Positions 23,995 to 44,157 of a stretch of DNA of 64,000 nt are shown here, piece by piece. How positions within the stretch are numbered: the first letter of the stretch is position 1; each line of letters starts with the position of its first letter. The notes under the pieces are model-generated. The model did not search any database. It was not told the DNA's origin and worked only from the letters and a program-made list of their open reading frames with translations. The stretch comes from Negativicoccus succinicivorans. Lineage in GTDB: Bacteria > Bacillota > Negativicutes > Veillonellales > Negativicoccaceae. Position numbers and translations under genes: made by a program. The DNA is taken from NCBI RefSeq assembly GCF_014207605.1, contig NZ_JACHHI010000001.1, forward strand, positions 62,001-126,000. The letters are read 5' to 3'.

Positions 23995-25326
23995 TTGAAA
24001 GGAACGTACCATATTATTACTTACGGTTGTCAAATGAACGAAAGTGATTCAGAACGCTTGTCGGGACAACTGGAAGAATTGCAATACCAACCTACAGACA
24101 ACATGCAGGAGGCAGACGTCATCGTCATCAACACCTGCTGCGTGCGAGAAAGCGCAGAAAATAAGGTTTACGGGAAAATTGGCGAACTGAAACATCTTAA
24201 AGCCAAGAATCCGAATCTTGTCATCGGCATTACCGGCTGTATGGCGCAGAAAAATAAGGAAGCGTTATTTGAGCGTGCTCCGCATATTGATTTTGTTTTC
24301 GGTCCGTACAATATTCATCATTTAAAAGAGTTACTGCAAAGCGGTAAAGCGGTCGCCTCGCACACGCTCAAAACGCAAATGCGCGGTGCCGATATTACAG
24401 ACTTTACGGATCTGCATGCCGTTCGTAAAAGCAATGTTTTTGCCTGGGTGCCGATCATGCAGGGGTGCAACAAGTTTTGCACTTATTGCATCGTGCCGTA
24501 TGTACGCGGTCGCGAATGGAGTCGTCCGATCGAGTCCGTTGTCAAAGAAGTACGGGAACTTGCCGCTGCAGGCTATAAAGAAATCACGCTCTTGGGACAA
24601 AATGTGAATGCCTATGGTCTTGATTTTAAAGACGGTACGGATTTTGCGGATTTGCTTCGCGAAGTGGATAAAATCGATGGCATTGAACGCGTCCGGTATA
24701 TGACATCGCATCCTCGTGACATGACGCGGGAGATGATCGATACGATTGCGCAGAGTCGGCACGTGGTCACCCAAATGCATTTACCCGTACAATCCGGTTC
24801 GGATGCTGTATTGAAAGGGATGAACCGCGGTTATACGGTAGAGCATTATTGTAAATTGGTGGATTATATCCGCAAAGTGATGCCCGATGTGGTACTGACG
24901 ACCGATCTGATCGTAGGTTTTCCCGGCGAGACGGAAGAAATGCATCGGGAAACGCTGGAGCTGCTGAAAAAGATTCGTTATGACTTGGCGTACACCTTTC
25001 TATACTCGCCGCGTTCGGGAACACCCGCCGCCAAAATGGCGGGACAGGTTTCCAAAGATGTCATGAAACGGCGCTTACAGGAACTCATGAGTATCCAAAA
25101 CGAAATCAGCTTAGAGCGCAACGAAACGATGGTCGGTAAAACATATGAAGTAATCGTGGAAGGGCCGACTAAAAATAATCCGAAGATGTGGTTCGGTCGT
25201 ACGAGCGGTAACAAAATGATTATTTTTGCACCGCGCGCAACGACTATGATCGGTGAGACAACACAAGTGAAAGTAGACCACGCGCAGACATGGCTTTTGC
25301 GTGGCGAATTGGCAGAAAGGAACTGA
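23995..25326 (+). CDS. miaB: tRNA-2-methylthio-N6-dimethylallyladenosine synthase
   Basis: MiaB is a radical-SAM enzyme that adds a methylthio group to i6A37 of tRNAs reading UNN codons. The 443-residue protein has the N-terminal iron-sulfur Cys set (YGCQMN, NTCCVRE, GCMAQ), the radical-SAM motif CNKFCTYC with C158, C162 and C165, and a C-terminal TRAM domain. The start is TTG behind AAGGAG. MiaA, which makes the i6A substrate, is encoded six kilobases downstream in the same run of genes. Confidence 0.96.
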   Translation: MKGTYHIITYGCQMNESDSERLSGQLEELQYQPTDNMQEADVIVINTCCVRESAENKVYGKIGELKHLKAKNPNLVIGITGCMAQKNKEALFERAPHIDFVFGPYNIHHLKELLQSGKAVASHTLKTQMRGADITDFTDLHAVRKSNVFAWVPIMQGCNKFCTYCIVPYVRGREWSRPIESVVKEVRELAAAGYKEITLLGQNVNAYGLDFKDGTDFADLLREVDKIDGIERVRYMTSHPRDMTREMIDTIAQSRHVVTQMHLPVQSGSDAVLKGMNRGYTVEHYCKLVDYIRKVMPDVVLTTDLIVGFPGETEEMHRETLELLKKIRYDLAYTFLYSPRSGTPAAKMAGQVSKDVMKRRLQELMSIQNEISLERNETMVGKTYEVIVEGPTKNNPKMWFGRTSGNKMIIFAPRATTMIGETTQVKVDHAQTWLLRGELAERN

Positions 25327-25327
25327 C

Positions 25328-27901
25328 ATGGCGGCCAAACTGACGCCGATGATGGCGCAGTATCAAGCAATCAAAAAAGAGCATCCGGATGAAATTCTGT
25401 TTTTCCGCTTGGGCGATTTTTATGAAATGTTCTTTGATGATGCCTTGCTGGCTTCCCGTGAGCTGGAATTAACCTTAACGGGACGGGCGGCAGGGAATAA
25501 AGAACGCGCACCGATGTGCGGTGTACCGTTTCATTCGGCGGAGAGCTATATTTATCGTCTGGTGCAGAAAGGTTATCGCGTAGCCATCTGTGATCAGCTG
25601 CAGGATCCGAGTGAAACCAAAGGCCTGGTCGAACGCGGCGTCACTAAAGTTATCACGCCGGGGACAGTTCTTTTAGACAGTTCATTGGCGAACGGTACCC
25701 GCAATTATTTGGCGTACTTGTATCAAAAAGAAGCGCAAATCGTGTTGGTGCTTGCTGAAGTTTCGACCGGAGAATGTCGTTGGGGATTATTTACGGATAA
25801 AGAAAAGCATGAACTGTTCGACGCATTGAGTATTTATGCGCCGGCGGAACTGATTATCGAAGCATCGGACGAATGTAAATTAAGTATCGAAAATTATGCC
25901 AAGTCGCGTCTTGGGACGATGCTGATTTTGAGCGCTGAAGAACTGGAAATGCCGCTACCGAAACTGACCGGGGCAACTGATTTCGGCGGTTTGGCGTCTG
26001 CGGAATTACCGACGGAGTCAGCGGTTCGCGAAGCATTGGCGCAGTTGTTTTATTATTTGGCAAAAACGTTGCAGCAATCGGCGAAACAGGTTACATTGCT
26101 ATTGCCGTTGCGTGAAGAAGCGCAAATGACGCTTGATCATCGGACGTTACGTCATTTAGAAATCTTACAGAATATGCAGGACGGAAGTATCCGCGGTACT
26201 CTCTATGCGCTTTTAAAGCAGACGCAAACGGCCATGGGGGCGCGCCTTTTACAGCGTTGGTTGGAAGCACCGCTACTCTCGGATAGGGAAATTTTGGCGC
26301 GGCAGGAAGCGGTGGCGGATTTTCTTAAAAATGCGCGCCAAGCGGATGCATTAGGAAATGTCTTGGAACGTATTTATGATTTTGAGCGGATCGTCACTAA
26401 AGTGGAGATTGGAACGGCGACGCCGAAAGATCTTTTGGCGGTACGGGATTCGTTAGCGGAACTGGTGCCGTTAAAGGAACTTTTGCAAGAATTCAATGCA
26501 CCTATGCTGCAAACGTTGAACCGCGATGTGGCGACGCACACGGATGTGTATACATTGCTGACGGAGGCTATCGCGCCTGACGCGGGTTTGCAACGTAACG
26601 GTGATTATATTAAAGACGGTTTTTCGCCGCGGCTGGACGAATTACGTTCGCTGGTCCATGACAGTCGCAGTTGGATCGCCAATTTGGAAGCGGCGGAAAA
26701 AGCTAAATCGGAACTTAAGTTAAAAATCGGTTTCAACAATGTGTTCGGTTACTATTTTGAAGTGCCTCGTTCCCAAGCGGAACGGGTACCGGAGTATTTT
26801 GTACGTAAGCAGACGCTGGCGAACGCCGAACGCTATATCACACCGGAACTGAAGGAGTTTGAAGTCAAAGTACTGTCGGCACAAGCGGAAATGGACAAGC
26901 TGGAAGCACAGCTATTTTCGCAGGTGCTCGCGGATCTGCGACCGGCGCTTGCGGATCTGCAGAAAACGGCGCGTACTCTTGCCGTCATTGATACGCTGCT
27001 GGCACTTGCCGTGGCCGCGCATAAATATCGTTGGGTACAGCCGGCATTAAATCGTCAGAATCGAATTGAAATCCGCGACGGCATGCATCCGATGTTGGCC
27101 GCCGCACAAAAGGATACATTCGTTCCGAATGACACCGTTTTACGTCATGAGGACTGTGAAACCATGCTGATTACCGGGCCTAATATGGCCGGTAAATCGA
27201 CGTATATGCGACAAGTCGCATTGCTGTTGTTGATGGCGCAGATTGGTTCGTTTATCCCGGCGCGCACTGCCGATATTTGTCCGGTCAGCCGCATTTTTAC
27301 GCGCATCGGCGCGACGGATGATATTGCCAGCGGTCAAAGTACATTTATGGTGGAGATGAATGAAGTCGCCGATATTTTACAGGCGGCGGACGCCAACTCC
27401 CTCATTTTGCTCGATGAAGTCGGTCGCGGCACGAGCACCTATGACGGCTTAAGCATCGCGCGCGCGACCGTTGAATTTATTGCGGAGAAAATCGGTGCGT
27501 TTACGTTATTCGCAACGCACTATCATGAGTTAACGGAAGTTGCGGATGTTTATCCGCACATTCAAAACTTTACGGTTTCCGTCAAGGAGCGTCGCGGCGA
27601 CGTGCAGTTTCTACGACGCATTATCCCCGGGAAAGCCGATAAAAGTTACGGTATTCATGTCGCCAAACTGGCGGGCTTACCGACGAGTGTGTTGCAAAGG
27701 GCACAGACGCTGCTGGCGGAACTCGAAACCACAACTCCCGCTGCACCTGCAGAAGCGGAGCGTGTTCCGGCGATGGACATTTTTGCCGACGGCATTTGGG
27801 ATGAATTGGCCGGTTTAGATGTTTTCAGCATGACACCGATGGAAGCAATGGAAACGTTATTCAGATTAAATAAGGAAGCCAAAGCGAGAAAGGGATTGTA
27901 A
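25328..27901 (+). CDS. mutS: DNA mismatch repair protein MutS
   Basis: MutS recognises mismatches and starts repair with MutL. The product from ATG 25328 is 857 residues. The mismatch-reading Phe-X-Glu motif is present near the N terminus in GDFYEMFF. The ATPase has Walker A GPNMAGKST at about 616-624, Walker B LILLDEVGRGTS, and the FATHYHEL stretch. An in-frame ATG-like start at 25301 inside miaB is rejected because 25328 has AAAGGA just upstream. MutL follows after one base. Confidence 0.97.
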   Translation: MAAKLTPMMAQYQAIKKEHPDEILFFRLGDFYEMFFDDALLASRELELTLTGRAAGNKERAPMCGVPFHSAESYIYRLVQKGYRVAICDQLQDPSETKGLVERGVTKVITPGTVLLDSSLANGTRNYLAYLYQKEAQIVLVLAEVSTGECRWGLFTDKEKHELFDALSIYAPAELIIEASDECKLSIENYAKSRLGTMLILSAEELEMPLPKLTGATDFGGLASAELPTESAVREALAQLFYYLAKTLQQSAKQVTLLLPLREEAQMTLDHRTLRHLEILQNMQDGSIRGTLYALLKQTQTAMGARLLQRWLEAPLLSDREILARQEAVADFLKNARQADALGNVLERIYDFERIVTKVEIGTATPKDLLAVRDSLAELVPLKELLQEFNAPMLQTLNRDVATHTDVYTLLTEAIAPDAGLQRNGDYIKDGFSPRLDELRSLVHDSRSWIANLEAAEKAKSELKLKIGFNNVFGYYFEVPRSQAERVPEYFVRKQTLANAERYITPELKEFEVKVLSAQAEMDKLEAQLFSQVLADLRPALADLQKTARTLAVIDTLLALAVAAHKYRWVQPALNRQNRIEIRDGMHPMLAAAQKDTFVPNDTVLRHEDCETMLITGPNMAGKSTYMRQVALLLLMAQIGSFIPARTADICPVSRIFTRIGATDDIASGQSTFMVEMNEVADILQAADANSLILLDEVGRGTSTYDGLSIARATVEFIAEKIGAFTLFATHYHELTEVADVYPHIQNFTVSVKERRGDVQFLRRIIPGKADKSYGIHVAKLAGLPTSVLQRAQTLLAELETTTPAAPAEAERVPAMDIFADGIWDELAGLDVFSMTPMEAMETLFRLNKEAKARKGL

Positions 27902-27902
27902 T

Positions 27903-29819
27903 ATGGCGCAAATACATATTCTCGATGCCGTTACCGTTAATCAAATTGCCGCCGGGGAAGTCGTTGAGCGACCGGCTTCGGTAGCCAAAGAATTGATTGA
28001 AAACGCCTTGGATGCGAATGCTACACATATTGAAATCGAAATTGCGGAGGGCGGAGCGCGCTACCTGCGTGTGACGGATGACGGCAACGGTATGACGGCG
28101 GAAGATGCAGCCCTTGCATTTGTACGTCACGCGACGAGTAAAATTCAAAAAGCGGCCGATATCTTCGCGATCAGTTCGATGGGATTTCGCGGTGAAGCCT
28201 TGGCAAGCATTGCGTCTGTTGCCAAGGTGACGTTGGTCACGCGTACGCAAGAAGCAGAAACTGGACAGGAAATTCGCATCGAAGGCGGCGAATTAATTTC
28301 TTCGCAGACAATCGGAGCGCCGGTAGGCACGACACTTGAAGTGCGAGATTTATTTTACAATACGCCCGCGCGGCAAAAGTTTTTGAAAACGGAACGTACG
28401 GAAAGCAGCCGAATTAATACATTGGTCGGTAAATTGGCATTAGCGCATCCGCAAATCGCGCTTCGTTTAATCAATAACGGTCGTACCGTAATTGATACGC
28501 CCGGCAACGGAGATATGCTGGATACATTTGCATCTTTATTCGGAACGGATCTTGCGAATGCCATGTTGCCGGTGGAGTATCAAACCGAGACCGACAGCGT
28601 GACCGGTTATATCGCTAAACCGGCTGTACTGAAGAGCAGTCGCCAATGGCAAACGTGGATTGTCAATGGTCGGATCGTGGAAAGCCCCGCTTTGAGTCGG
28701 GCACTCGACAATGCGTACCATTCATTGTTGCCGAAACGCGGCTACCCGCCGGCCGTGATTCGCGTAATGATTTCTCCCGCGGATGTCGACGTAAATATTC
28801 ATCCGCAAAAGCGGGAAGTTAAATTCAGCGATGAGCAGGCGGTATTTCGTGCGGTATATCATGCGGTTTTAAATGCGTTGACGAGTGTTGATGATGCGGC
28901 CACCGTGGCGACGGAAGTGACACAGGCACCGCTTGGTATGCAACGCCATACCGCTGCATTGCAAGGCGAATCCGCGCAGAAACAAAATGAATTTACGCTA
29001 GCGGATAAGAAAACGGATTTTGAGCTCCAGCAAGGGGTGTTGGAGTCGACGGTACGTCCGCCGAATGCCATTACGAAACCGAGCTCATCAAGCGCGCCAG
29101 CCGCTTCAACACAGACGGCAACGTCTTACGCACCGCCGCGTTGGAGCGTCGCGGAAGAAAATACGTTCAGCGAATACATGGCGAAGGTACAGCAAGAGGA
29201 TACTTCCGACGAAGAAGAACGCATTTTATTTACACCGCAGGAAGATGCAGAGGCTACACTTGTCCCATTGGGTCAGATCGCGAACTGTTTTATCGTTTGT
29301 CAAAAAGGCGAAGAGCTCTACATCATTGACCAGCATGCGGCGCATGAAAGAGTACGCTACGATCGTTTGGCACAGGCGACCGAAGGGATTCCGGCGCAAA
29401 CCTTACTGGTGCCGCAACTTTTGCAACTCGATGCCGAAGATGTTCAAGCATTGCTCACCCATGAGGAGCAGTTGCACGCACTGGGATTTCAATTTGAGCA
29501 GGCCGGACCGCAATTGCTGCGTTTAGTAGCGGCGCCTGCCGATGCCGTCGGCACCGAACAGGAACGCATGCTGAGCGAAATCAGTTTGGCGCTGCAGGCG
29601 GATACGCCGCCGACCGCCGAACAGTTACGCCATCGCGTATTGGCATATGCTTCCTGCCGCGGAGCGATCAAAGCGGGGCATGCATTGAATATTCGTCAGA
29701 TGCGGGAATTAATTCGCGATTTGCTCGCGACAAAACGTCCGTTTGTTTGCCCGCATGGCCGACCGGTTATGGTTCGATTTACCGCCGCCGATTTGGCAAA
29801 ACTGTTTCGGCGCTCCTGA
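27903..29819 (+). CDS. mutL: DNA mismatch repair protein MutL
   Basis: MutL links MutS to downstream repair steps. The 638-residue protein has the GHKL ATPase motifs at its N terminus: LIENALDANAT, DDGNGM and GFRGEALASI. A linker at about 335-430 is rich in Gln, Thr, Ser and Ala. The C-terminal dimerisation domain carries DQHAAHE from about residue 476, ACRGAIKAGH and CPHGRP. These are features of the endonuclease-type MutL of Gram-positive bacteria. The last acidic position of the metal motif is Asp rather than Glu. It overlaps the next gene at TGATG. Confidence 0.96.
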   Translation: MAQIHILDAVTVNQIAAGEVVERPASVAKELIENALDANATHIEIEIAEGGARYLRVTDDGNGMTAEDAALAFVRHATSKIQKAADIFAISSMGFRGEALASIASVAKVTLVTRTQEAETGQEIRIEGGELISSQTIGAPVGTTLEVRDLFYNTPARQKFLKTERTESSRINTLVGKLALAHPQIALRLINNGRTVIDTPGNGDMLDTFASLFGTDLANAMLPVEYQTETDSVTGYIAKPAVLKSSRQWQTWIVNGRIVESPALSRALDNAYHSLLPKRGYPPAVIRVMISPADVDVNIHPQKREVKFSDEQAVFRAVYHAVLNALTSVDDAATVATEVTQAPLGMQRHTAALQGESAQKQNEFTLADKKTDFELQQGVLESTVRPPNAITKPSSSSAPAASTQTATSYAPPRWSVAEENTFSEYMAKVQQEDTSDEEERILFTPQEDAEATLVPLGQIANCFIVCQKGEELYIIDQHAAHERVRYDRLAQATEGIPAQTLLVPQLLQLDAEDVQALLTHEEQLHALGFQFEQAGPQLLRLVAAPADAVGTEQERMLSEISLALQADTPPTAEQLRHRVLAYASCRGAIKAGHALNIRQMRELIRDLLATKRPFVCPHGRPVMVRFTAADLAKLFRRS

Positions 29820-35972: not shown

Positions 35973-38221
35973 TCTGGCATTATGGAGCGTTGTTGTTTGC
36001 GTCGGCAGTCGCGCTGGGGATCGTTTTAAATACCACGTATCCGTTACTTGTCTACGGGATTTTACTGATTGCAGTCGGTGCTCTTACCGGATTTTTCTTT
36101 TTGACGCCGGAAAAAATGGGGCGCAAGTGGCTGCTCTTAATTTTATTCAGCGGTTTGCTTGCAGGCGGAGCGGGTATTTATTGGCAAGAAAAGCAATCAG
36201 CGGATCTTGCTTTTTTTGTGTATAACGAAACCGGCACATACCATGTCACTGTGGAAAGGGAAGCACAGGTTTTCACCGACGGAGATAAAGTGACATATCG
36301 GTATCCGGTGGCGCTAAGAACATTTTCCTATCTGGACGGTGTGACAAGGAATACTAAAGGGAAAGCATATCTTTATTTAGATGGTACGCAGTATGCGCCG
36401 TATCCTGTTGGCACGGTGCTGCAAGTTAAGGCCGAATTAAAACCGTTTCACTATTATCAAAACCCCGGACAAAAAACACTTTATTATCGTCACCGCACAG
36501 AACAAATGCTGGGCAATTTATACGTTCCGCTCAAATCGCAAGCGAATGCTGTCGGTATGGCTAAAGGTTATTACTTTTTGTCTATGGCCCAACACCTGCG
36601 CGAGACAACGCGGACCTTTTTTGCGCAGGCCTTGCCGAAGTCGGAGGCGGCGTTGGCGTTTGCTTTGCTGTGGGGCGGTTATGACGGCCTTTCTTCCAAC
36701 CTGATTAATGCGTTTGCCAATTCCGGTATTATTCATATTTTATCTGTTTCCGGTTCTCATATTGCGCTTTTATTCGGCCTCCTTTGGTGGCTCGGCAGGT
36801 GTCTTCGCATACCCGACCCACTCACATATGGTGCCGCTTTTTTATTGGTTTTTACCTATGCATTTATTACCGGCTGGCAACCTCCCGTGGTGCGTTCGTT
36901 TTGGATGGGCGCGGCGGCGTTTGGGGGAATACTGCTGCGGCGGGACGTGGATGCTAGCCATTGGCTTGGTTTGGTTAGCGCACTGATGCTGCTGTATCAG
37001 CCGTTTCTTTTATATGATGTCAGTTTTCAACTGTCATTTGGTGCCACGCTGGGGTTGGTAACCTGCTATGTTCCTTGCTCGCGACTGTGTTGCACGTATT
37101 TGCACATGCCGCTGCGCTTGGCGCAAGGGATCGCAGTTACCGTTGCCGCAAATATTTTTTTGTTGCCGTTGTTGTTATATTATTTTCAAGCCCTGCCGCT
37201 TTATGCAGTACTGACAAATATCATCGTCGCACCGTTGTTGGAAATCATTATTGCGGCGGAGTTGGCGGCGGTCATCTTGCATTTTGTTTGGACGCTACCG
37301 GCGGTGGGAATCTTGCAACTCGTTCACTATGGTCTGGTCATCTCGGTTGCACTGATTCAAATCGTGGCGGATTTACCGCTGGCGCAATTACGATTTCGCG
37401 CGTTAAGTATCGGGGAAACGGTTCTCTATTTCGTCGGCTTGGCGGCGATCGTTATGTATTTTAAATCCAAACGCACCTGGGGGAAATATCCTTTATTGGC
37501 ATTCTTCGTTATTTGTCTCGGGATGGGAATCTATCGGATCACGCAAAGCGGCCAAACGCGCATTTTCGTGCCGGACGTCGGGCAAATGGGAGCCATTTGT
37601 ATGGAAACCGGGGGACGACGGATTTTATATATCAAGGAAAGTCGTTATGCGCGGCGAGATTATCCCCGGGCGCTGACTCGTGCTTTAAATTTTTACGGTA
37701 TTTTTACTGTGGATGATTGTATTTATGTGACACCGCGTGAAAATACGGCAGAACCGTTTCCGGCGCATCGTTATCTGCGGGCACAGGAAATTTCCGACGG
37801 TAAAAATCAGTACGTCGTGTCAACGGCGGATACTTTTATTCAATATCCCGGCGTGCTTGCCAATCAAAATGGAGTGGGACTGGCTACATCGGATGGCTCG
37901 GCGTTAGTACAATTACAAACTGAAAAATCCTTGGTGCTGCCGAGCACGACGAATTTACTTGTGATAGCGAATGCGAAAAGTGCGAGGACGGTACTGGCAC
38001 AACGGCATCCGCAACTGTCTATTACAGTGCCTGATGGAAACTTTAGAGGTAGTGAAGGCACGGCGGATGGTAGCGAGGAGTTTCACGCGAAAGGTATACC
38101 TGTGTATAATAATAAAGAGACAGGAATGATAGTCGCATCATTACATGGTCATACATGGCACGTCGAAACGGAGATAAAAACGCATGCAGAAGGACCAAAT
38201 TTACCTTTTTCACGGTACTGA
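35969..38221 (+). CDS. comEC: ComEC/Rec2-family DNA uptake channel with degenerate C-terminal domain
   Basis: The 750-residue protein has about ten membrane segments and the competence core (LSVSGSHIALLFGLLWW, near residue 260). It forms the inner-membrane channel for single-stranded DNA. The C-terminal part from about residue 530 corresponds to the lactamase-like domain but starts FVPDVGQMGAICMETGG and contains no HxHxDH metal motif. Start assignment is weak: TTG 35969 overlaps the comEA stop, with no strong ribosome site. The comEA-comEC-holA order is typical of Firmicutes. Confidence 0.85.
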   Translation: MIWHYGALLFASAVALGIVLNTTYPLLVYGILLIAVGALTGFFFLTPEKMGRKWLLLILFSGLLAGGAGIYWQEKQSADLAFFVYNETGTYHVTVEREAQVFTDGDKVTYRYPVALRTFSYLDGVTRNTKGKAYLYLDGTQYAPYPVGTVLQVKAELKPFHYYQNPGQKTLYYRHRTEQMLGNLYVPLKSQANAVGMAKGYYFLSMAQHLRETTRTFFAQALPKSEAALAFALLWGGYDGLSSNLINAFANSGIIHILSVSGSHIALLFGLLWWLGRCLRIPDPLTYGAAFLLVFTYAFITGWQPPVVRSFWMGAAAFGGILLRRDVDASHWLGLVSALMLLYQPFLLYDVSFQLSFGATLGLVTCYVPCSRLCCTYLHMPLRLAQGIAVTVAANIFLLPLLLYYFQALPLYAVLTNIIVAPLLEIIIAAELAAVILHFVWTLPAVGILQLVHYGLVISVALIQIVADLPLAQLRFRALSIGETVLYFVGLAAIVMYFKSKRTWGKYPLLAFFVICLGMGIYRITQSGQTRIFVPDVGQMGAICMETGGRRILYIKESRYARRDYPRALTRALNFYGIFTVDDCIYVTPRENTAEPFPAHRYLRAQEISDGKNQYVVSTADTFIQYPGVLANQNGVGLATSDGSALVQLQTEKSLVLPSTTNLLVIANAKSARTVLAQRHPQLSITVPDGNFRGSEGTADGSEEFHAKGIPVYNNKETGMIVASLHGHTWHVETEIKTHAEGPNLPFSRY

Positions 38222-39143
38222 TATACCGGCTGTTTATGCTCGTAAGCAGCAAGCCGGAAACAGTGCTGCAGAAACCGTGGAACAGGGTAAAGAACACAGT
38301 ACGACGGCGGAAATCGTGCAGCAAATCAATCAACCGTCGCTCTTTACCGAAGTGCGTCGGTTTGAATTTATTAATCCTTTGTTTTTGACACAAAAGGATG
38401 AATCTATTCCGGCGAAGGAATTTCTGCAGGCATTGGAAAATGTACCGGTGGAAACGCGTGTTTTTTTTATTTTGGAAGGTAAACCGGACCGTCGATTAAG
38501 TTTGGTAAAAAAATTTTTGCCGCTGGCGCAAGTATCGGTGTCGGAATTTATTCCCGGCTGGAAAGTCGGCGCCGCTTTTAACAGTGTCTTGCGTGTTCAA
38601 GGCCGGACGTTAAGTCGTGCTGCGCAACAGTACTTGCAAGCGGTGGCAGAAAGCTGGGATAACACATCGTCCGTTTTTATTACTACAGAAGCACAAAAGT
38701 GGCAACTGATGACGGATCAAAAAGAGATTCCGCTCGAAGTGGTGCAGGAGTCGCTACCGTCGTACCTGCAACGGCAAGTGTTTCGATTTTGGGATGATTT
38801 GGTGGATCAACGCAAGCGAGCTGTTCTGGAAGCCGTTCCGCATTTATTCAATGATATGGCAGAGACCTTGAAAAATACCGGCTTTCTGGCTTCGCAATTG
38901 CGTCTTTGCTTGGGGATTTATGAATTGGAACATGCCGGTGTTGCGACGAGAGATATGGCACGAAAATTGCAAGTTAAAAATCAATGGCGCTGGAAAAACA
39001 TTTACGCCGCAGCGCAGAAGCTGAACTATGCGCAGTGCGCTGGGTTGTTGCTGACACTGTATCGCGCGCAATGGCGGCAACGTAACGGTTATGAAGTTTC
39101 GTGGAGCGAACTGTTCGGTGAATATTTGCGAGGAACTTTATGA
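38184..39143 (+). CDS. holA: DNA polymerase III delta subunit, divergent
   Basis: The 319-residue protein is assigned mainly by position after comEC and by its layout. It has an N-terminal FHGTD segment where HolA has its YLFYGEE-like start, a middle LEGKPDRRLSLVKKF segment, and a helical C terminus with LRLCLGIYELEHAGV. HolA loads the sliding clamp with HolB and DnaX. The sequence is diverged and the P-loop is not functional-looking, as is usual for delta. It overlaps the comEC end by 38 bases. An unrelated function is not excluded. Confidence 0.72.
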   Translation: MQKDQIYLFHGTDIPAVYARKQQAGNSAAETVEQGKEHSTTAEIVQQINQPSLFTEVRRFEFINPLFLTQKDESIPAKEFLQALENVPVETRVFFILEGKPDRRLSLVKKFLPLAQVSVSEFIPGWKVGAAFNSVLRVQGRTLSRAAQQYLQAVAESWDNTSSVFITTEAQKWQLMTDQKEIPLEVVQESLPSYLQRQVFRFWDDLVDQRKRAVLEAVPHLFNDMAETLKNTGFLASQLRLCLGIYELEHAGVATRDMARKLQVKNQWRWKNIYAAAQKLNYAQCAGLLLTLYRAQWRQRNGYEVSWSELFGEYLRGTL

Positions 39144-40575: not shown

Positions 40576-43500
40576 TTGCGTAAGTATAAATTTGTTCCTC
40601 GAAAACCGGTGAAATTTAAAGAGTTAATTGTCGACATTAAAGGGAAAACTTGGGAAATCACCAAAACAGCGGATTTTACGCCGCAAAAAATAAATGAATT
40701 TGTACCGCCGGCTGTGACGCTAAAAGTAGACGGTGAAACGGTTACTCGTACAGTGCTTCCCGACCCAACTGATGAAAATAGCGCGGCTCCGTCGGACAAA
40801 GGGAAGCAAGCTTCATTTGGGCAGGGGAATGGGGTATCACAAGAAGGGATGACTTCAGAACCGGCCTCGATAGAAGCGGCGACTCCCGAACCGGAAACCA
40901 AGGGCACGGATGCGGCACCGTCCGTAAGTACGACGGATGTGTCAAGCAGTTGGCAAAATTTGCTGTATGATGATCGATTTTTGCAGGCGCGTGCTCAAGC
41001 GAAAACAGGCGGCGATCCGGAGCTTTTGATCGGCAAACGCAAAATTAAAGCGACACCGCTTGCGATGCGGGAAATTCACGAAGAAATGGCAGCCGTCATC
41101 GTTGAAGGGGATGTTGTATCGGCTGAAGTTCGCGAATTGCGGACAGGTCGTAAATTGCTCAAATTAAAAATGGCCGATGACACGAACGGTCTGGCGGCGC
41201 AGTATTTCTTTGAAAAAGGAGAGGATACTTCCTGTTTGGAAAAAAATCTTTGTCGTGGCAAACGTGTACGGGCACGCGGCGAAGTGCGCCAGGATAAATA
41301 TTCGGGCGGTTTGGTTATGCAGCTTTCCAATTTAATGTTGGTGCCGACCGGGACGTACAGTCATGAGGATAATCATCCGACGCCGCGCGTCGAATTGCAC
41401 CTCCATACCAAAATGAGTACGGACGCGCTGATTGATGTGGACCGTTTGTTGACCACGGTAAAAGAATGGAATCATCCCGCGGTCGCCATTACCGATCATG
41501 GTGTTGTCCAATCATTCCCTATAGTGCAGGCATTGGCGGCGGAAAAAGGTGTCAAAGTCATTTACGGGATGGAAGGCTACCTGATTGAAGATATCCCGGC
41601 GGATATTACGCGCGATCAGCAAAAATATACTCATATTATTTTATTGGCGAAAAATCGCGTCGGTCTGCAAAACTTGTACCGACTGGTTTCGCTTTCGCAT
41701 TTGCGGTATTTCAAAAAACGGCCGCTCATTCCGCGGGCAATCTTAGACGAGAATCGCGAAGGATTAATCGTCGGTTCGGCCTGCGTTGCGGGAGAATTGT
41801 TCCGCGCCGTTTTGGACGATTTGCCGCGCTCGGAGCAACTGCGAATTGCCAGTTACTACGATTATTTGGAAATTCAGCCGATTGGGGACAATCGCTTTCT
41901 CTTACAGGATGATCGCTATCCCAACATAAAAACGGATCGCGATTTGCAGAAGCTGAATGAAGTTATTGTCAGTCTGGGGGAAGAACTGAATTTACCGGTC
42001 TGTGCAACTTGCGATTCGCATTATCTGTTTGATGAAGATAAAATCTATCGCGAAATTTTACTCAGCAAATGGGGTAAATCCGGTGAGCCCGAACAATTGC
42101 CGGACCTTTATTTGCGTACGACGGAAGAAATGCTGGAAGAATTTTCTTACCTCGGCGAGACCAAGGCATTTGAAGTCGTTGTCAGCAATACCCGTGGAGT
42201 AAGCGAACTGGTGGAAGACTTTGCGCCGCTTCCTGCTGACGGAAAATTATATTCACCTCAGATCAGCGGCTCGGACACCGAGCTTGAACGCATGTGCTAT
42301 GCAAAAGCTAAGCGCCTTTACGGTGACCCTTTGCCGGCGATCGTAGAAGAGCGATTGAAAAGTGAACTCGAAGCGATCATAGGCAACGGTTTCGGTGTGT
42401 TGTATTACATCGCGCATAAGTTGGTGGCCCACTCTTTAGGAGATGGTTATCTCGTCGGTTCACGCGGTTCGGTCGGCTCCTCCTTTGTGGCAACCATGGC
42501 GGATATTACGGAAGTAAATCCGTTGCCGCCGCATTATTTGTGTCCGCAATGTCAATACAACGAATTCATCACGGACGGTTCCGTCGGCGGCGGGTTCGAT
42601 CTTGCGGATAAAGCATGTCCAAAATGTGGCGCTGCATTGCACAAAGACGGTCACAACATTCCGTTTGCCGTATTCTTGGGATTCGAAGGGGATAAGGTAC
42701 CGGATATTGATTTGAACTTTTCCGGTGATTATCAGCCGCAAGCGCACAAATATACGGAAGAATTATTCGGGCGCGACAATGTGTTTCGCGCCGGGACAAT
42801 CAGCGGTATTCAAGATCGCACCGCCTTTGGCTATGTAAAAAAGTACGCGGAGCAAAGGCAATTGGTGACGAATGATATCTATGCGGAGAGTCTGTTGACT
42901 GGCATCACCAAGGTCAAAAATACCACCGGCCAGCATCCGGGAGGCATTATGGTTTGTCCCCGCGATATGGATATTTTGGCATTTACGCCGATTCAACATC
43001 CGGCCAATAAAAAAGAGTCGGGCATCATCACGACTCATTTTGACTACCATTCCATCGAAGGCCGTATGGTTAAGCTCGATATTCTGGGGCATGATGATCC
43101 GACCGTCATTCGTATTTTAGAAGATTTGACGGGCATCAAACCGTCAGAAATTCCGTTTGATGATCCCGCCACCATCAGTCTCTTTTCTTCGACGGAAGCG
43201 CTGGGGCTGACACCGGAGCAATTAAATGGAGATACCGTCGGGACGTTGGGGATTCCGGAATACGGTACGCAATTCGTACGCCAGATGCTGGAAGACACAC
43301 ACCCGCAAAATTTTAGTGAATTGGTACGTATCAGCGGATTTTCTCATGGCACGGATGTGTGGCTTAATAATGCCAAGGATTTGATTACGGCCGGCGAAGT
43401 CAAGCTGGAAGACGCGATTTCAACCCGTGATGACGTGATGAACTATTTAATTCAGCACGGTGTGGCACCCAAAATTGCGTTCAACGTCATGGAAAATGTT

Positions 43501-44157
43501 CGGAAAGGACGCGGTCTCGAAAAGAAAAATAAACAGGGGCAACCTGTCAGCAAAAATGAAGAAGCTCTGCGCAAAGAAAAAATTCCGGAATGGTTCATCA
43601 ATTCCTGCAAAAAAATCTCGTACCTCTTTCCACGGGCGCATGCGGTGGCATATGTCATGATGGCCTTCCGTATTGCCTGGTTTAAAATCTACCATCCGCT
43701 GGCATTCTATGCAGCATACTTTACCGTACGTGCGCGCGGTTCTTTTGACGGCAAGGCGATCTTACCGGGGTTGGCGAGCCAAGAAAAAATGTGGAAATAC
43801 ATTCAGGCCAAAGGCCGCGACGCCAGTGCGGTAGAAAAGGATTCCGCCACGAATATTGAAGTGGCGATGGAAATGGCCCAACGCGGTTTCCGGTTTAAAC
43901 CCATCGATCTTGCCCGTTCCCACGTGCGCGATTTTGTGGTGGAAGATGGGATGTTGTTACCGCCGCTTTCCTGCGTACCGGGACTTGGCGAAACCGTAGC
44001 GGAAGAAATTGTGGCGGCGCGTGAAAACGGACCGTTTACATCAAAAGAAGACCTGCGTAAACGCGGTAAGGTCAGCCATACGATTGTGGAAACACTAACG
44101 GAAATGGGCGCCTTGGAGGGAATGCCTGATGAAGAACAATTAAATTTATTTGGTTAA
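40576..44157 (+). CDS. polC: PolC-type DNA polymerase III alpha subunit lacking the exonuclease domain
   Basis: This is the replicative polymerase, 1193 residues against about 1430 in B. subtilis. An N-terminal segment and a low-complexity linker (about 62-122) precede an OB domain (about 165-260). The PHP domain begins at residue 271 with RVELHLH. The usual proofreading exonuclease inserted after KVIYGMEGYL is absent: the chain runs directly from IEDIPADITRD (about 338-347) into YTHIILLAKNRVGLQNLY. Zinc Cys pairs (CPQCQ, CPKCG) and the catalytic PDIDLNFSGDY motif are intact. TTG start, with a GGGGG site upstream. Confidence 0.95.
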   Translation: MRKYKFVPRKPVKFKELIVDIKGKTWEITKTADFTPQKINEFVPPAVTLKVDGETVTRTVLPDPTDENSAAPSDKGKQASFGQGNGVSQEGMTSEPASIEAATPEPETKGTDAAPSVSTTDVSSSWQNLLYDDRFLQARAQAKTGGDPELLIGKRKIKATPLAMREIHEEMAAVIVEGDVVSAEVRELRTGRKLLKLKMADDTNGLAAQYFFEKGEDTSCLEKNLCRGKRVRARGEVRQDKYSGGLVMQLSNLMLVPTGTYSHEDNHPTPRVELHLHTKMSTDALIDVDRLLTTVKEWNHPAVAITDHGVVQSFPIVQALAAEKGVKVIYGMEGYLIEDIPADITRDQQKYTHIILLAKNRVGLQNLYRLVSLSHLRYFKKRPLIPRAILDENREGLIVGSACVAGELFRAVLDDLPRSEQLRIASYYDYLEIQPIGDNRFLLQDDRYPNIKTDRDLQKLNEVIVSLGEELNLPVCATCDSHYLFDEDKIYREILLSKWGKSGEPEQLPDLYLRTTEEMLEEFSYLGETKAFEVVVSNTRGVSELVEDFAPLPADGKLYSPQISGSDTELERMCYAKAKRLYGDPLPAIVEERLKSELEAIIGNGFGVLYYIAHKLVAHSLGDGYLVGSRGSVGSSFVATMADITEVNPLPPHYLCPQCQYNEFITDGSVGGGFDLADKACPKCGAALHKDGHNIPFAVFLGFEGDKVPDIDLNFSGDYQPQAHKYTEELFGRDNVFRAGTISGIQDRTAFGYVKKYAEQRQLVTNDIYAESLLTGITKVKNTTGQHPGGIMVCPRDMDILAFTPIQHPANKKESGIITTHFDYHSIEGRMVKLDILGHDDPTVIRILEDLTGIKPSEIPFDDPATISLFSSTEALGLTPEQLNGDTVGTLGIPEYGTQFVRQMLEDTHPQNFSELVRISGFSHGTDVWLNNAKDLITAGEVKLEDAISTRDDVMNYLIQHGVAPKIAFNVMENVRKGRGLEKKNKQGQPVSKNEEALRKEKIPEWFINSCKKISYLFPRAHAVAYVMMAFRIAWFKIYHPLAFYAAYFTVRARGSFDGKAILPGLASQEKMWKYIQAKGRDASAVEKDSATNIEVAMEMAQRGFRFKPIDLARSHVRDFVVEDGMLLPPLSCVPGLGETVAEEIVAARENGPFTSKEDLRKRGKVSHTIVETLTEMGALEGMPDEEQLNLFG

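Follow-up and report, generated by a model that had tools for sequence, protein, structure and literature searches.

The window analysed here is a stretch of 64,000 nucleotides from the genome of Negativicoccus succinicivorans (1.4 Mb, 99.98% complete), and carries on its forward strand, as do all the window features given below, a gene for a DNA polymerase III of the PolC type without the DEDDh exonuclease (Exo) insert (polC, 40576..44157, an ORF of 1193 aa whose putative start is a TTG, the first start codon that follows the preceding stop). Two genes upstream lies holA (38184..39143), coding for the delta subunit of the clamp loader, and further away are mutS and mutL (25301..29819), so that the genome also encodes mismatch repair. 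The N-terminal part of PolC ahead of the OB domain comprises ~165 residues (40576-41070), of which 59-145 are predicted to be disordered. The OB region itself (approx. residues 165-265, 41068..41370), placed by an alignment to structure 3f2b that starts at residue 165 and by AlphaFold strands at 171-255, is followed by the first half of the PHP domain (41389..41562), with the metal ligands H275, H277, D283 and H308, and by the segment YGMEGYL (residues 330-336, 41563..41583), which holds ligand E333 and marks the Exo insertion point in PolC of the B. subtilis type. Next comes a loop of 14 residues, IEDIPADITRDQQK (41584..41625), lying between model strands 327-337 and 352-358 where an exonuclease insert of ~200 residues would sit, and then the second half of PHP (41626..42024), which opens with YTHIILLAKN at residue 351 and contributes ligands H353, C403, D480 and H482. 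The polymerase core (Pol3 and fingers, 42280..43530, with PDIDLNF at residue 709 and HDDPTVIR at 839) and a C-terminal clamp-binding motif, QLNLFG (44137..44154), of the type described in PMC3919608, complete the protein.

The protein exceeds the cut-offs of the NCBIfam equivalog models for PolC (NF001688, 1431 bits vs 873; TIGR01405, 1325 vs 1043) and has the features of the type: an OB domain ahead of PHP, HhH towards the C-terminus and the terminal clamp motif. The NCBIfam match is split, its main stretch restarting at profile position 610 (376), past the exonuclease. A Pfam search of the 1193 residues recovered PHP (273-418), Pol3, finger and HHH domains and no RNase_T domain anywhere, and the interval between ligands E333 and H353 is only 20 residues. 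The 1474-aa PolC of PDB 9qpc aligns in two pieces with ~160 residues unmatched in between, and 3f2b, an Exo-deleted construct of the G. kaustophilus enzyme, in a single one; the latter is also the best PDB match of the AlphaFold model (TM 0.94 by target), in which the PHP domain is closed and the blocks around the junction have pLDDT 91-98. An initial annotation of the window had described a PolC cleanly deprived of its proofreading exonuclease, with PHP, zinc and polymerase motifs intact, and this description holds, all nine PHP metal ligands being in place. The junction is short and direct, as it had said, but measures 14 residues instead of about 10. An assembly deletion or a pseudogene is exceedingly improbable: the reading frame is intact, the identical junction occurs in the 96% identical PolC of a second Negativicoccus genome, that of N. 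massiliensis (L007/L036), and the architecture is shared across the class. The window PolC is thus confirmed as an intact polymerase of the Exo-less type, neither artefact nor pseudogene.

Polymerases of this kind are already on record. Exo-less PolC was reported in Clostridia and Negativicutes by Timinskas et al. 2013 (PMC3919608), and the Negativicoccus protein, without Exo insertion and in a Negativicutes genome that also encodes DnaE1, corresponds to their description: it shares the OB, PHP, Pol3 and HhH domains, shows no architectural difference and is one more member of the same type from the same class. With the B. subtilis-type PolC it has the family, the motifs, the PHP ligands and the C-terminal clamp motif in common, and it differs in having no DEDDh exonuclease inside PHP, an insert of about 200 residues. 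A survey of 150 genomes of the class (some 34 family codes) found the short form throughout, with no PolC above about 1350 aa, i.e. of Exo length, among the matches listed. The PolCs of 299 genomes sampled from the phylum form two length classes: short proteins of about 1130-1350 aa, whose match begins in the N-terminal part, and long ones of about 1380-1490 aa, in which it resumes after Exo. Counted by hand, at least about 104 short and at least 42 long ones are among the matches listed, which are the best-scoring ones, so that their ratio may be biased. The interval between the PHP ligands E333 and H353 (or their equivalents) discriminates the two forms, with 210-218 residues in Exo-bearing PolCs (n=26) and 13-40, with one at 85, in Exo-less ones (n=65). 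Exo-less proteins made up 6% of PolC in the 2013 set; here they account for the entire class sample and for no less than about a third of the phylum genomes sampled, although sampling differs between the two studies. The absence of Exo in Negativicoccus is known in kind and ordinary for its class, not a peculiarity of this genome, and in this respect the interpretation given in the initial annotation was incomplete and is only partly supported.

Two variants appeared in these surveys. One PolC of ~1372 aa (L064, G228:C9:11176-16362) carries at the Exo site an Ala/Pro/Asp-rich stretch of ~85 residues and no exonuclease. Three genomes of the class (G089, G103 and G134) carry an additional PolC-like gene that is divergent (36-47% identity, frames of 600-900 aa), perhaps a decaying or mobile copy.

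To follow the Exo state along the phylogeny we used quick PolC trees, with SH-aLRT as the only support measure. A tree of 74 PolCs from which the Exo columns were excluded needs seven changes of state, at least three of them forced by well-supported branches, and a tree of 44 rows needs eight, four of them forced. A single split separating all Exo-less PolCs as one clade was rejected (p-AU 6e-9). The Exo state has been altered several times within the phylum. Given that the insert always occupies one site, recurrent loss is simpler than repeated gain, and the data, on trees whose root is uncertain, point to loss as the probable direction, repeated insertion at the same site being the less likely alternative.

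How an Exo-less PolC might be proofread is suggested by the PHP domain itself. A site of nine residues in PHP is the proofreader of M. tuberculosis DnaE1, where it is lined by the very loop that takes the Exo insertion in PolC; the substitution D226N abolishes this activity, and G. kaustophilus PolC (Gka PolC), in which one PHP ligand is changed, is inactive (PMC5636811). The window PolC has the nine metal ligands characteristic of PHP-type proofreading polymerases and, like M. tuberculosis DnaE1, a loop at the B. subtilis-type Exo position; the mycobacterial enzyme is a DnaE1 of demonstrated activity, whereas the Negativicoccus protein is a PolC known by its sequence. Among Exo-less PolCs seven of the nine ligand positions are kept in 65/65 and the other two in 64/65. 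All ligands are also kept in 23/26 Exo-bearing PolCs, so that their conservation is not specific to the Exo-less forms and is no proof of activity. As a signature distinguishing the two forms, D480, which is N in the inactive G. kaustophilus PolC, had to be rejected (D in 64/65 vs 23/26). In 15 of 54 Exo-less genomes (completeness 89% or above throughout) no RNase_T match of any kind was found, while 40/40 Exo-bearing control genomes have one, through PolC itself; a DnaQ-like partner therefore cannot be a general substitute for the lost domain. Together with the intact ligands this makes editing by PHP the best-supported general explanation for Exo-less PolC. We found no publication describing proofreading by the PHP domain of a PolC.

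A separate exonuclease is nevertheless available in Negativicoccus. The initial annotation had noted that the window holds no DnaQ-like gene, correctly, as the genome's only two RNase_T matches lie on other contigs, and had concluded that proofreading must either be supplied by another protein or be weak. Two stand-alone DEDDh exonucleases make the former possible, but it is not required, the nuclease site of PHP having been overlooked; weak proofreading is no more than an expectation. One of the two is a DnaQ-like protein of 195 aa (P0002, L109; G000:C3:262153-262737, minus strand, outside the window). It has the DEDDh active site, and its RNase_T domain is confidently modelled (pLDDT about 95) with a disordered C-terminal tail. 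Its catalytic residues D7, E9, D91, H144 and D149 are invariant in 33 homologues. The closest structures are ExoX, the Exo domain of PolC and epsilon, and the nearest NCBIfam model is PRK06195; the curated cut-offs for epsilon are missed (best NF004844, 168.6 bits vs 373; TIGR01406, 42.9 vs 222.7). That the protein is the released Exo domain of PolC is unsupported, with 169 bits to PRK06195 against 68 to PolC. Homologues are present in 59/60 genomes of the order, including 52/52 good ones, and in 112/150 of the class (E <= 0.001). In the phylum sample they were found in 33/299 at 1e-15, at least one of these matches being the Exo domain of PolC itself, and a hand count outside the class gave about 8 with a homologue among about 94 Exo-less genomes. 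Such a patchy distribution led us to reject the idea that this exonuclease generally replaces Exo.

The tail of this protein might link it to the sliding clamp. In Negativicoccus it ends in QDALF; in one family of the order (f1) all four sequences end in Q[DG][AGS]LF (QDALF, QGALF, QGGLF or QGSLF), in a second family (f4) 11/11 end in Q[MD][STA]FF (QMSFF, QDTFF or QDAFF), in a third (f2) 3/6 end in [VM]SLF, with no Q, and in a fourth (f3) 0/9 have a tail. No such tail was seen in the homologues sampled elsewhere in the class. Among 340 ORF ends from the loci of the order, the pattern Q..[LMF]F at the C-terminus or within two residues of it occurs otherwise only in PolC. The QxxLF/QxxFF tail, confined to part of the order, is plausibly a clamp-binding peptide and provides a new lead; a literature search found no paper on DnaQ proofreading in Negativicutes.

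A rival explanation would be proofreading in trans, in which the QDALF peptide would tether the 195-aa exonuclease to the beta clamp and the enzyme would edit behind both PolC and DnaE1. Its near-universal presence in the order, the invariant catalytic residues, the Q-tail of the f1 and f4 sequences (with [VM]SLF in half of f2), the restriction of that pattern to PolC among other ORF ends, and a disordered tail on a well-folded domain are all consistent with this, yet f3 and the homologues from the rest of the class lack the tail, a homologue (E <= 0.001) is missing from 38/150 class genomes even though the class shows no PolC of Exo length among the matches listed, and outside the class the exonuclease accompanies only the few Exo-less genomes counted above. 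Moreover, fold and sequence are as near to ExoX and to the PolC Exo domain as to epsilon, and a role in repair would fit equally well. We regard trans proofreading as a rather unlikely account. The corresponding proposition for the order, that a separate DnaQ-like exonuclease tethered to the clamp has taken the place of the editing domain that PolC lost, its C-terminal QxxLF/QxxFF peptide resembling the clamp motif of PolC, is similarly doubtful; if true, it would represent a layout of replicative proofreading in PolC bacteria that is neither that of the inserted domain nor that of the alpha-bound epsilon. The 195-aa exonuclease resembles the noncanonical mycobacterial DnaQ (discussed in PMC12926913) in that a stand-alone DEDDh exonuclease coexists with a replicative polymerase whose PHP site is intact, here with a candidate clamp-binding tail; the Negativicoccus protein, known from sequence, differs in being short (195 aa) and nearest to PRK06195 among the NCBIfam models.

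Alternatively, PolC would no longer be the main replicase and a PHP-proofreading DnaE1 would do the bulk of the synthesis, so that Exo could be lost at no cost to PolC, an idea raised by Timinskas et al. for PolC + DnaE1 systems (PMC3919608), in which the division of synthesis and proofreading is described as an open question. The single DnaE1-type polymerase of the genome (1205 aa) would be suited to this, as it has an intact PHP domain, an OB domain and a QTGLF motif. However, almost all genomes of the class retain PolC, with its full motifs, and the mean column identity of 46% across the sampled Exo-less PolCs is what would be expected of an important enzyme. This alternative seems to us decidedly improbable, more so than the clamp-held exonuclease.

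The reading that we favour, and consider on balance probable, combines a normal and functional PolC of the Exo-less type that occurs across Negativicutes and in many Clostridia, a clean ancestral loss, editing by the PHP domains and a possible DnaQ-like addition. The absence of Exo, the intact PHP ligands, the presence of DnaE1 and of the tailed exonuclease and the repeated change of Exo state are shown, whereas loss as the direction of that change, the activity of PHP, binding to the clamp and a part in proofreading are inferred. An ancestor would have lost the DEDDh insert cleanly from the PHP loop, leaving a loop that would be of the same size as that of DnaE1 (PHP ligands 5 and 6 are separated by 20 residues in PolC and by 21 in the DnaE1 of the same genome). 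PolC would most likely edit at its own intact trinuclear-zinc PHP site, with a contribution from the corresponding site of its DnaE1 partner, where the nine zinc ligands are also kept, and in this order the separate DnaQ-like exonuclease, possibly held on the clamp through its C-terminal QxxLF peptide, may contribute. The main interest of these genomes is less the absence of Exo itself than that the question of proofreading becomes testable: the probable repeated loss of Exo, along with the 15/54 sampled genomes that have no RNase_T family protein, provides a natural test of proofreading at the PHP site of PolC. A 2026 survey building on Timinskas et al. tallies proofreaders of the PHP and DnaQ types in bacteria that have both PolC and DnaE1; what is new here is that the Exo state changed repeatedly within the phylum and that a stand-alone exonuclease with a likely sliding-clamp tag might take over the correction of errors.

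As regards the remaining exonucleases of the genome, the Pol I-type DEDDy domain (PF01612) gave no match in it, and Pol I is probably without an active proofreading domain as well, which is consistent with the statement of the 2026 survey on the Firmicutes. The second stand-alone DEDDh exonuclease (P0001, 318 aa, in the region G000:C4:71068-71508; L001:1414-2370) is distantly similar to KapD/Rv2179c and carries an extra C-terminal half.
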